NCBI GenBank assembly: GCA_017405085.1
Contig: JAFRBB010000026.1
Coordinates: forward strand, 62,001 to 126,000
Length of the DNA stretch: 64,000 nucleotides
DNA from: Eubacteriaceae bacterium
GTDB lineage: Bacteria > Bacillota > Clostridia > Eubacteriales > Eubacteriaceae
Direction: 5' to 3'
In this document: in pieces, positions 2 through 43,720 of the stretch
Position numbering within the stretch: the first letter of the stretch is position 1
How the letters are laid out: every line of letters begins with the position of its first letter
Program-made: the position numbers and the translations under genes
Notes under the pieces: model-generated
The model's input: only the letters and a program-made list of their open reading frames with translations
Databases searched by the model: none
Told to the model about the DNA's origin: nothing

Positions 2-595
2 GCCGACGCCCTGTCCATGGCCGACGCGATGATCACTTTAAAGCTGGTGATTCGTACGATTGCCCAAAGACACGGCTTTTTCGCGAGTTTCATGCCAAAG
101 CCCAAACGCGGCGTTCCCGGCTCCGGCATGCATTTAGGATTGTCTTTTCAAACGATCAAAAATGCTTCTTTTGATGCCCGTGCTTTTCATGACGGCATTG
201 CCGCGCATCTTCCGGGCACGGCATTGGTGAGCAATCCTCTGGTCAATTCTTATAAACGTCCGGTCTCCGATTTGGCGGATGCCTTTTTGGCGAAGGGGGA
301 CGGGCGATTTGATTTGAAGCATCCGGATCCCGCGGCAAACCCCTATTTGACCATCGCTCTGATCATAGAAGCGGGGCTTTCGGGTTTGAACGGAACAGCC
401 GAAAAATCAACAGAGTGTCAATTTCCGCAAAATTTAAAAGCGGCGATCGAGACATTTGAGAAGGACAGATTGATTCAAGAGATTCTGGGAAAAACCATCA
501 GCACAAGGCTTATCGCTACAAAGGAAGAGGAATGGGCGGAATACAGTTCTCAGGTGACAGATTGGGAGCTTTCCAAATGGCTGTTCCGGATATGA
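2..595 (+). CDS. glnA: Glutamine synthetase type I, C-terminal part (5' end outside window)
   Basis: This is the C-terminal part of a type I glutamine synthetase, which makes glutamine from glutamate, ammonia and ATP in the cytoplasm. The frame is open from the window edge, so the first half of the roughly 440-residue enzyme is missing. What is visible includes the stretch FMPKPKRGVPGSGMHLGLSF, the conserved KP...GSGMH active-site block of the family. The C-terminal tyrosine motif used for adenylylation in enteric bacteria is not seen. An ANTAR regulator starts 3 bases after the stop and glutamate synthase follows, so this is the head of a GS-GOGAT operon. A second, type III synthetase lies at 35.3-37.5 kb. 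Confidence 0.93.
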   Translation, partial: ADALSMADAMITLKLVIRTIAQRHGFFASFMPKPKRGVPGSGMHLGLSFQTIKNASFDARAFHDGIAAHLPGTALVSNPLVNSYKRPVSDLADAFLAKGDGRFDLKHPDPAANPYLTIALIIEAGLSGLNGTAEKSTECQFPQNLKAAIETFEKDRLIQEILGKTISTRLIATKEEEWAEYSSQVTDWELSKWLFRI

Positions 596-35326: not shown

Positions 35327-37465
35327 TTAAATGTAGAACAGCAAGTCTTCGTAGATCGGATAGGGCCAGTATTTGCGGCCGACAATTTTCTCAAGGGCAT
35401 CGGCGCTTTGTCTCAAGGCGTTCATTGCGGGAATGACATCCGACAAATAGAAATCGGCTTTTTCCTGGGCGCCGGAGGTGGCGTCGGCGCGCTGATTTGC
35501 GGATTCGAGGGCGTCGGTGCGGTCGATGGTCTCGGCGGTGAGCGCCGAGATGCGTTCGGCCATGCGCCGCTCGGCCGTGTCGTCCGTGGACATGCCGACG
35601 GCTTGTTTTTGGGACAGGATGGTCGTCAAATCCCGGACGCAATCGAGGCAGGCCGGCACGATTTCATGGCGGGACATGGAAATCATGGTTTTGGCTTCGA
35701 TGTTGACGGTTTTGGAATATTCTTCCAAATGGATTTCCTGGCGGGCCTGCATTTCCAGCGGTGAATAGATGCGGTGCTTGTCCATGACGTCCATGTTTTT
35801 GGGCAGGCAGTATTCACGGAAGGCATCGGGGGTGGTGGCCAGATTGGGAAGACCGCGGCGCTCGGCTTCACGCACCCAGTGATCGGTATAGTTGTTGCCG
35901 TTGAAGATGATGTCTCTGTGTTCGCGCAGTTGGTGTCTGAGCATGCGCTTGCATTCTTTTTCGAAATTGTCGGCGTTTTCCAAAATATCGGCGTATTCCG
36001 AAAGGACTTCGGCGACGATGGCGTTTAAGGCGATGTTGGGACCGGCGATGGATTGGTTGGAGCCGAGCATACGAAATTCAAATTTGTTGCCGGTGAAGGC
36101 AAAGGGCGATGTGCGGTTGCGGTCGGTGGCGTCGGTGACGAAATTGGGGACGGCGCAAATGCCCAGATCCATGATTTCCTCTTCGGATTCGGCGACGGCT
36201 TCGCCGGTTTCGATGGATTCAAGCGCCGCGGTCAGCTGATCGCCCAAAAAGATGGAGATGATGGCGGGAGGGGCTTCGCCGCCGCCGAGACGGTGATCGT
36301 TGCCGGCGCTGGCGACGGTGCAGCGCAGGAGCTCGGGATAGCGGTGAACCGCTTCGATGACGGCGGTCAAAAAGGTCAAAAACTGCAAGTTGGAAGCGGG
36401 ATCTTCGCCGGGATCCAAGAGGTTTTCGCCGGTGTCGGTGGCGATGGCCCAGTTGTTGTGCTTGCCGGAGCCGTTGACGCCCTCAAAGGGCTTTTCGTTG
36501 AACAGACAGTGCAGGTTGTGCTTGGGGGCCTGACGGCGCAGCGTGTCCATGACCACGTGGTTGGAATCCGTCGCCTGATTGCAGACGGAGAACACCGGCG
36601 CCAGCTCGTGCTGGCAGGGAGCGACTTCGTTGTGGCGGGTTTTGGAGGGGACGCCCATGCTCCACAATTCCCGGTCGACGTCGCGCATAAAGGAGCCGAC
36701 GCGGCCGCGGATACGGCCGAAATAATGATCGTCCATCTCCTGGCCCTTCGGTGGCTCAGCTCCGAAAAGGGTGCGGTGACAGAGGATCAAGTCCTTGCGT
36801 TTTTTGAACATTTCGTTGTCGATCAAAAAATATTCCTGTTCGGCGCCGACGGTGCAGTTGACGCGTTTGACGGTGGTGTTGCCGAATAAGCGGAGCACCC
36901 GGACAGCGGCGTCGGAGAGGGCCTCCATGGAGCGAAGCAACGGTGTTTTTTTGTCTAAAACTTCGCCGGAATAGGAGATAAACGTCGTCGGGATATAGAG
37001 TGTGGTACCTTTGACATAGGCGTAGGACGTGGGGTCCCAGGCGGTGTAGCCCCGGGCTTCAAAGGTGGCGCGAAGACCGCCGGAAGGGAAGGAGGAGGCG
37101 TCGGGCTCGCCCTTGATGAGCTCTTTCCCCGAAAATTCCATGATGACTTTGCCCTCTTCCGTCGGGCTGATGAAGGCGTCGTGCTTCTCGGCGGTGACGC
37201 CGGTCATCGGCTGAAACCAGTGGGTGAAATGGGTGGCGCCCAGTTCCAGTGCCCAATCCTTCATGGCGTTGGCGACGACCTCCGCCACCTCAAGGGTCAG
37301 GGGCATGTCGCCTTTGATGGTTTGAAGCATGCTTTTATAGATGTGCTTGGGCAGGCGTTTTCGCATCACCGTGATGTTAAACACCTTGGAGCCGAACAAC
37401 TCGATAATGTCTTCTTTTTGATCGTGATACTCCGACTCGCGATGGGACGCATGATAATCTGACAT
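35327..37465 (-). CDS. glnN: Glutamine synthetase type III
   Basis: This 712-residue enzyme makes glutamine and belongs to the large type III family common in Clostridia, Bacteroides and cyanobacteria. Clear markers are the N-terminal [41 protein letters not shown], the active-site [32 protein letters not shown] and [20 protein letters not shown]. It is the second glutamine synthetase in this window. The gene has a strong ribosome binding site (AAAGGAG) and is preceded by a consensus promoter and a leader with a small frame overlapping a terminator hairpin, so expression is probably controlled by attenuation. Confidence 0.97.
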
Positions 37466-37514: not shown

Positions 37515-37568
37515 TTAAAAAAAGCGCCGAAACCACAAAAACGGAAATCGGCGCGTCATTATCTTCAT
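37515..37568 (-). CDS. Possible 17-codon leader peptide upstream of glnN
   Basis: Between the promoter and glnN a short frame reads MKIMTRRFPFLWFRRFF and stops. It has a strong ribosome binding site (GAGGAG, 8 bases upstream), stronger than many real genes here. The frame runs through the whole terminator hairpin and stops just inside the T-run. The peptide is Arg- and Phe-rich, with RRF twice because the stem arms encode it. This is the geometry of a translation-coupled attenuator, but there are no Gln codons, so the sensed signal is unclear. It may also be fortuitous. Confidence 0.45.
   Translation of the reverse strand: MKIMTRRFPFLWFRRFF
37517..37554 (-). terminator. Leader terminator (attenuator) of glnN
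   Basis: Arms GCGCCGA/TCGGCGC enclose a 17-base loop with two further pairs possible; T7 follows on the minus strand. It lies between promoter and start codon, so it must be passed for glnN to be expressed. Confidence 0.78.
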
Positions 37569-37597
37569 TAACTTTTCTCCTCGTAAAAGTCCCTTGC

Positions 37598-37626
37598 ATT
37601 ATATCCAAAAGTCCGGAAATTGTAAA
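37598..37626 (-). promoter_or_regulatory. Promoter of glnN
   Basis: On the minus strand TTTACA, exactly 17 bases and TATAAT. Transcription would start near 37591, giving a leader of about 125 bases. Confidence 0.82.
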
Positions 37627-37848: not shown

Positions 37849-39120
37849 ATGGCAATTACAGTTTTGGTCGGCGCTCAATGGGGCGACGAAGGCAAGGGCA
37901 AGATCATCGACTATCTGGCGGACAAGCAGGATTTGGTCGTGCGCTTCCAGGGCGGCGACAATGCCGGGCATACGGTCATCAACGACAAGGGCGTTTTTAA
38001 AATGCACCTGGTCCCCAGCGGCATCTTTAATGAACACGGCGCTTGCCTCATCGGCACCGGCACCGTGGTCAACCCCGATGTCCTCATGTCGGAAATGGCG
38101 GAAATCGAGGCCGGCGGCGTCGATGTAAGCCGGCTTTACATTTCCGGAAAGGCGCATATCTTGATGCCTTATCATCAGGAATTGGACGCGCTGATGGAAG
38201 CGGCCGGCGGCATCGGCACCACCAAACGCGGCATCGGCGTGGCTTACGCCTTTAAAATGCTTCGCAAAAATCTCCGGATGGAGGATTTACTCGATCTCGA
38301 CAACGCGTGCGCCAAGCTGGGATCCTATCTTGGCGTGGTCAATAACATGCTTGCCGCCTATGGCGCGGCGCCGGTGGACATGGCGTCAATGGATGAGAAA
38401 CTCTCAAAATGGGCGGCTTTTTTTGCGCCGCGAATCGTCGAGCCCATCGCCTTTGTGCATCGCTATATCAACGAAGGCAAAAACATTCTCTTTGAAGGGC
38501 AGCTGGCTGCCATGAAGGACATCGATCAGGGGATTTATCCCTATGTGACGTCCTCCTGTCCGTCGGCGGCCTACGCCGCGGTATCCGGCGGGTTCCCCGC
38601 AAAAAAAATCGACACCGTCATCGGTGTGGCTAAGGCCTTTTCCTCGGCGGTGGGCGACGGGCCGTTTCCGACGGAGGATGCCGAGGATGAGCAAATCGCG
38701 ATCATCCGCGGCAAAGGCGACAAACCCGACGATGAATTCGGCGCCCGCACCGGACGCTCCCGGAGACTGGGCTGGCTGGATTTGCCCATTCTCCGCTACA
38801 CTACCATGGTCAACGGCTTTGATGAAATTGCCCTGTGCAAAATCGACAAGCTGGATAAGCTTGCGTCCATCAAGGTCTGCGTCGCCTATGAGCTTGACGG
38901 CAAGCGCATTGTCGACCTGCCGGGCACCGATGATCTATATCGGGTCAAACCGATTTATGAGGAACTTCCCGGCTGGCAAGAACCCACCGGCGGCATCCGC
39001 AAAATCGACGACTTGCCCGAGAACGCCAAGGGTTACATCAAATTCATTGAGGATTATGTCGGCGCGCCGGTGAATTATGTCGGCGTCGGACCGGGACGGG
39101 AAGATTTGGCTGTGCGATAG
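37849..39120 (+). CDS. purA: Adenylosuccinate synthetase (divergent subfamily)
   Basis: This GTP-dependent enzyme joins IMP and aspartate in AMP synthesis. The 423-residue protein has the catalytic Asp13 and His41 in their motifs (QWGDEGKGK, GGDNAGHTV) and the GTP/aspartate loop ARTGRSRR. Several usually invariant substrate positions differ: FEGQLAAMKDID replaces FEGAQG..LDID, QGIYPYVTSS replaces HGTYPFVTSS and GIGVAY replaces GIGPAY. I believe a branch with FEGQLGAM-type motifs exists in some Gram-positives, so this is probably a true PurA of that branch. The gene leads purA-carA-carB, with 36 bases to carA. Confidence 0.88.
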   Translation: MAITVLVGAQWGDEGKGKIIDYLADKQDLVVRFQGGDNAGHTVINDKGVFKMHLVPSGIFNEHGACLIGTGTVVNPDVLMSEMAEIEAGGVDVSRLYISGKAHILMPYHQELDALMEAAGGIGTTKRGIGVAYAFKMLRKNLRMEDLLDLDNACAKLGSYLGVVNNMLAAYGAAPVDMASMDEKLSKWAAFFAPRIVEPIAFVHRYINEGKNILFEGQLAAMKDIDQGIYPYVTSSCPSAAYAAVSGGFPAKKIDTVIGVAKAFSSAVGDGPFPTEDAEDEQIAIIRGKGDKPDDEFGARTGRSRRLGWLDLPILRYTTMVNGFDEIALCKIDKLDKLASIKVCVAYELDGKRIVDLPGTDDLYRVKPIYEELPGWQEPTGGIRKIDDLPENAKGYIKFIEDYVGAPVNYVGVGPGREDLAVR

Positions 39121-43508: not shown

Positions 43509-43720
43509 CGAGGGGAGAGGCCGCCCGAGGGCGGTGCGATAAGCCCGCATTGCTTCATGCTTCGCATTCTCATAATTCGGCGTCTATTCGCACCCGAGCG
43601 ATCGCTCTATGTGCTCATGACTGTTGCCTTGTCAAATGTCTATATGACCTGATGAGCAAACGCATCGTTCATACGTCCGCTTGACAAGAGCTTATCGCTT
43701 AAATGAATAATGAATCCTTC
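43509..43720. other. Intergenic region after carB
   Basis: Non-coding stretch. A short GC hairpin (GCCGCCC/GGGCGGT) lies 14 bases after the carB stop but lacks a T-run. Nothing else is recognised up to the terminator at 43725. Confidence 0.5.

Follow-up and report, generated by a model that had tools for sequence, protein, structure and literature searches.

A predicted terminator in the leader of a type III glutamine synthetase gene of a Eubacteriaceae bacterium: a probable attenuator lacking an ANTAR site and possibly opened by translation of a mini-frame

Results and Discussion

The intrinsic terminator predicted between the promoter and the coding region of glnN, the gene of type III glutamine synthetase (GSIII), very probably belongs to a transcription attenuator that has no ANTAR site. 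Our preferred reading is that of a lineage-specific attenuator of a vertically inherited GSIII, opened by ribosome-coupled read-through; to this statement as a whole we assign a probability of about 0.4. Its translation part, according to which translation of a mini-frame would open the terminator, is equally tentative, and a general coupling of translation to read-through is possible. The window referred to below is the whole stretch of 64,000 nucleotides that was analysed, and positions are counted from its first letter.

Architecture of the glnN leader

The 712-aa GSIII is encoded on the minus strand (35327..37465, Pfam GSIII_N 1e-78) and has its own ribosome site AAAGGAG at 37478-37472. 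The upstream neighbour purA (37849..39120, plus strand, Adenylsucc_synt 3e-153) is divergent, so the terminator in this intergenic region cannot serve an upstream gene and can act on glnN alone. All elements named in the original prediction (the promoter, the ribosome site in a hairpin loop, the 17-codon frame and the T7 terminator before glnN) were located on the minus strand, and the description of the leader as attenuator-like is supported by the position of the terminator between the glnN promoter and glnN. The promoter (37598..37626) matches the consensus at 11 of 12 positions and consists of the -35 box TTTACA (37626-37621), a 17-nt spacer and the -10 box TATAAT (37603-37598); the 1.2-kb region contains 3 promoter-like sites against 1.2 expected. 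Transcription of glnN is expected to start at about 37591.

The 5'-terminal hairpin (37571..37590, minus strand) is formed by ACTTTT (37590-37585) and AAAAGT (37576-37571) with the 8-nt loop ACGAGGAG. It is weak (-4.1 kcal/mol, z -2.5, 4 of 200 shuffles equally stable). The putative ribosome-binding site GAGGAG (37577..37582, minus strand) lies inside this loop, 8 nt from the ATG at 37568 that opens the predicted 17-codon frame MKIMTRRFPFLWFRRFF (37515..37568, minus strand). The frame spans the predicted terminator (37517..37554, minus strand), which is made of a 7-bp stem, GCGCCGA (37554-37548) and TCGGCGC (37530-37524), and a T7 tract (37523-37517); the stop codon TAA (37517-37515) sits directly behind the T-tract. 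The stability of the terminator (-15.4 kcal/mol, z -3.99) was reached by none of 200 shuffles, and the start of glnN follows at a distance of about 50 nt. The fold of the full 81-nt leader is unremarkable, no better than that of shuffles (z -1.44), and the predicted structure comprises only the 5' hairpin and the terminator, which do not overlap.

Rfam covariance models gave no match over the leader at the gathering score (the best permissive match, E = 2, is far under the cut-off), and a known riboswitch or other Rfam family was ruled out on these grounds. A 10-bp palindrome between the terminator and glnN, ATCAATTGAT, was set aside as an operator; by a hand estimate it has a chance of about 4% in 50 nt. 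Elsewhere in the window a Clostridiales-1 RNA (Rfam RF01699) is found at 43537-43697 on the minus strand, between carB and the next gene (64.1 bits against a cut-off of 48).

Frequency of comparable frames

The terminator is clearly non-random, and the frame exceeds chance only moderately. Because no stop codon interrupts any of the three frames within the terminator sequence, only a Shine-Dalgarno sequence and a start codon need to arise by chance. We required a Shine-Dalgarno match of at least 5 nt, a start codon and an open run through the terminator, and shuffled the 38 nt ahead of the terminator, i.e. the leader's own 5' part. Such a frame arises in 2.9-3.8% of these shuffles and in 0.5% at intergenic composition. 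Among 239 terminator-like structures from the window and about 80 related loci there is one other framed case, within a gene; 408 structures from the window and 20 further stretches of the genome (about 0.45 Mb, both strands) contain five others. One of the five is a cobalamin riboswitch leader (RF00174, 98.6 bits; L183:4890-5095, minus strand) with a Shine-Dalgarno-led frame of 19-20 codons across its terminator, which is probably due to chance and was used as calibration. The control of this leader is known and different, and thus a frame of this kind can occur without being a leader peptide.

Leaders of related GSIII genes

GSIII orthologues, 64-77% identical, are present in most of the 40 genomes of the Eubacterium family that were compared. 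Nearly all of the 31 other family leaders examined, none of them from the same genus, have a terminator-like structure, and a Shine-Dalgarno-led frame through it is found in 0 of the 31. Relatives that keep the terminator without the small frame are what the original prediction had named as speaking against it. The weight of this result is reduced, since the leaders compared are not positional counterparts: in the other family loci that were inspected purA is nowhere adjacent to glnN, the arrangement being known in this genus only, and in the same-genus assembly (G001) no GSIII gene was found and the contig ends at the position matching about 37636 of the window. Across the 40 genomes, similarity of the leader DNA is convincing only for the purA-side flank in this same assembly.

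A hairpin of the ANTAR P2 type, with a C-G closing pair and the hexaloop AANGGY (A1, G4), overlaps the 5' arm of the terminator in the majority of family leaders. It was detected in 62 of 118 GSIII leaders against 0.3 expected from shuffles (L005, L048, L065, L067 and L073 are examples of the about 60 loci). At the fourth stem position, which lay outside the search requirement, 26 of 29 distinct sequences form a pair, and five pair types are represented there. These hairpins resemble the 13-nt element AGCAANGRRGCUY and obey the A1/G4 rule published for the targets of EutV, NasR and AmiR, and genes of glutamine and glutamate synthesis have been listed among ANTAR targets (PMC3369931). Among the journals covered by our search, no paper was found which ties type III glutamine synthetase to ANTAR leaders. 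As expected, the hexaloop hairpin is also missing before the GSIII (L021) of the family genome G002, where the search detected no ANTAR gene. L016, L115 and L116 are likewise negative under the strict hexaloop rule. Genome G021 has two closely related GSIII copies, L004 and L168 (G021:C1:114013 and 2154201); in one of them the leader is of the ANTAR type and an ANTAR gene lies about 7 kb away, and the short leader of the other shows, by inspection, no hexaloop hairpin and no terminator.

The window gene's five nearest neighbours in the GSIII tree (L004-L008) bear ANTAR-type leaders, and yet its own leader has no hexaloop hairpin overlapping the terminator, a pattern that counts in favour of an attenuator which has left ANTAR control. 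The second GSIII of this genome (glnN2) is placed on a distant branch and does have an ANTAR-type hairpin (L166:3075-3130 = G000:C67:58882). Another such hairpin precedes purF (L166:1187-1240 = G000:C67:56994). Both lie just outside the window and near the only ANTAR gene found in the genome (599..1150, plus strand, PF03861 2.5e-15, the single match in G000), whose likely targets are outside the window glnN leader. The interval from glnN2 to the ANTAR gene encodes a 395-aa GlnA-like protein (window 17-595 and L166:5609-6796; 233 bits against a family cut-off of 429), which may be a degenerate synthetase that serves the ANTAR protein as a sensor partner.

A possible single-hairpin ANTAR target

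The published ANTAR mechanism employs two hairpins (PMC3369931); a later structural study found the single hairpins to be bound with similar affinity and raised the possibility that the two are not required together (PMC8934654). Of the 62 GSIII leaders of ANTAR type, 4 contain a further A1/G4 hexaloop upstream, with 5.5 expected by chance. The hexaloop hairpin often starts a few nt from the expected transcription start, and in 30 of the 52 leaders whose promoter could be recognised its stem begins 5-13 nt past the -10 box, where a first hairpin would have hardly any space, if any. As judged from these sequences, the hexaloop hairpin seems to stand alone, and it may constitute a single-hairpin ANTAR target. 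In L017-L020, L114, L117-L119 and L123 a small hairpin whose loop is a GNRA-like tetraloop (e.g. GTCACGAGAGTGGC) is seen just upstream of the hexaloop hairpin, and in those loci it may replace the usual first ANTAR hairpin.

Alternative explanations

With its promoter, short leader and terminator directly before a nitrogen gene, the glnN leader is built like the ANTAR target leaders of EutV, NasR and AmiR (PMC3369931) and of the GSIII relatives, but it differs from them in that rule-based scans found neither an A1/G4 hexaloop hairpin overlapping the 5' arm of the terminator (P2) nor a second one upstream (P1). The ANTAR protein which such control requires is present, and ANTAR control is the rule for the orthologous leaders. 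It is conceivable that an ANTAR protein opens the leader through a diverged site, or that another RNA-binding protein does so at the 5'-terminal hairpin. We consider this improbable: the sole A1/G4 hexaloop with at least 3 bp, GTTAATGAAGAT, has a weak stem with G-U pairs and does not overlap the terminator arm, a pattern search for AGCAANGGNGCT was negative in the leader, and the loop of the 5' hairpin has 8 nt and its stem does not compete with the terminator. ANTAR control of the leader was rejected after these scans and pattern searches, and with it the suggestion that the ANTAR regulator near position 600 provides the signal, the hexaloop over the terminator being absent here, unlike in the orthologues and the genome's second GSIII. 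Far less probable still is classical attenuation, in which stalling at Arg or Phe codons for want of charged tRNA would choose between terminator and antiterminator. The 17 codons do include 4 Arg and 5 Phe, and in 13 window genes the codons ATA and CGA are used infrequently (1.7 and 3.1 per thousand). However, the predicted fold contains no mutually exclusive antiterminator hairpin, and the positions of the Arg codons coincide with the stem arms and those of the last Phe codons with the T-tract, which means that these codons follow from the terminator itself. Repeated codons for a pathway-linked amino acid were not found in the frame: it has no Glu and, as had been stated, no Gln codon. There is no logical tie to nitrogen assimilation, and the frame was not found in relatives. 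Amino-acid attenuation was rejected on the codon content and the missing antiterminator; the proposal that charged tRNA for Phe or Arg provides the signal is unsupported for the same reasons. The window leader shares with trp/his-type and drug-sensing leaders of Firmicutes a Shine-Dalgarno-led mini-frame upstream of or across a terminator, but lacks their run of pathway codons, alternative hairpin and known stall motif. Among the journals covered by our search, no paper on a glutamine synthetase leader peptide in Clostridia was found.

Nearly as likely as ribosome-coupled read-through is a plain, partly leaky attenuator with a coincidental frame, which would let glnN be expressed at a low fixed fraction of initiation while the second, ANTAR-type GSIII does the regulated work. 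The chance expectation of 0.5-4%, which follows from the three open frames, and the same geometry in the cobalamin riboswitch leader are compatible with coincidence, and the ANTAR-type hairpin of the second GSIII is of textbook form and close to the only ANTAR gene found. On the other hand, GAGGAG and ATG are well arranged, and a terminator of 7 bp and T7 immediately downstream of a promoter would be costly if it were never opened. For ribosome-coupled read-through speak the Shine-Dalgarno-led ATG, its 8-nt spacing and the stop right behind the T-tract, a combination that is rare among terminators; against it speak the absence of the frame from the family leaders, the cobalamin riboswitch case, the short distance from start to terminator and the z-score of the whole-leader fold. 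Also unfavourable are the finding that in B. subtilis the polymerase outruns the leading ribosome (PMC9226507) and the rarity of leader-peptide attenuators in Firmicutes (PMC2965389).

Proposed mechanism

According to the ribosome-coupled reading, the terminator directly behind the promoter would end many transcripts near +75 unless its hairpin is opened. A ribosome initiating at GAGGAG/ATG would cover the 5' arm of the terminator after a few codons, the polymerase would pass and glnN would be made; with poor or late initiation the terminator would form. What is sensed would be the initiation of translation, or general coupling, and no particular tRNA, since there is no competing hairpin and no Gln codon and the Arg and Phe codons largely spell the stem and the T-tract.

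The closest parallel is the pyrBI leader of E. coli. Its frame pyrL, with about 44 codons, exceeds the mini-frame in length and follows a U-rich pause region through which UTP is sensed, whereas A and G predominate in the region before the window terminator, where by inspection there is no U-rich pause stretch of this kind. Common to both is a mini-frame through an intrinsic terminator, translated in pyrBI and predicted here. In pyrBI tight coupling across pyrL prevents the terminator, a closely following ribosome blocking the hairpin, and a competing antiterminator hairpin is not needed (PMC5021804).

Switches of the sensing system on one and the same gene have been documented (PMC2965389). 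A full scenario for glnN, in which the ANTAR site was lost, the leader terminator was kept or regained and a translated mini-frame was acquired, so that a protein-controlled attenuator became a ribosome-coupled one, appears rather unlikely.

Significance

The broader and better supported result is that many GSIII genes of Clostridia share an ANTAR-type leader which apparently uses one hexaloop. If the mini-frame of the window leader works, glutamine synthetase would have a coupled attenuator in the manner of pyrBI, in a phylum where the polymerase is thought to outrun the ribosome. The leader would then also show clearly how, on one and the same gene, here a central nitrogen gene in Clostridia, one attenuation sensor takes the place of another.
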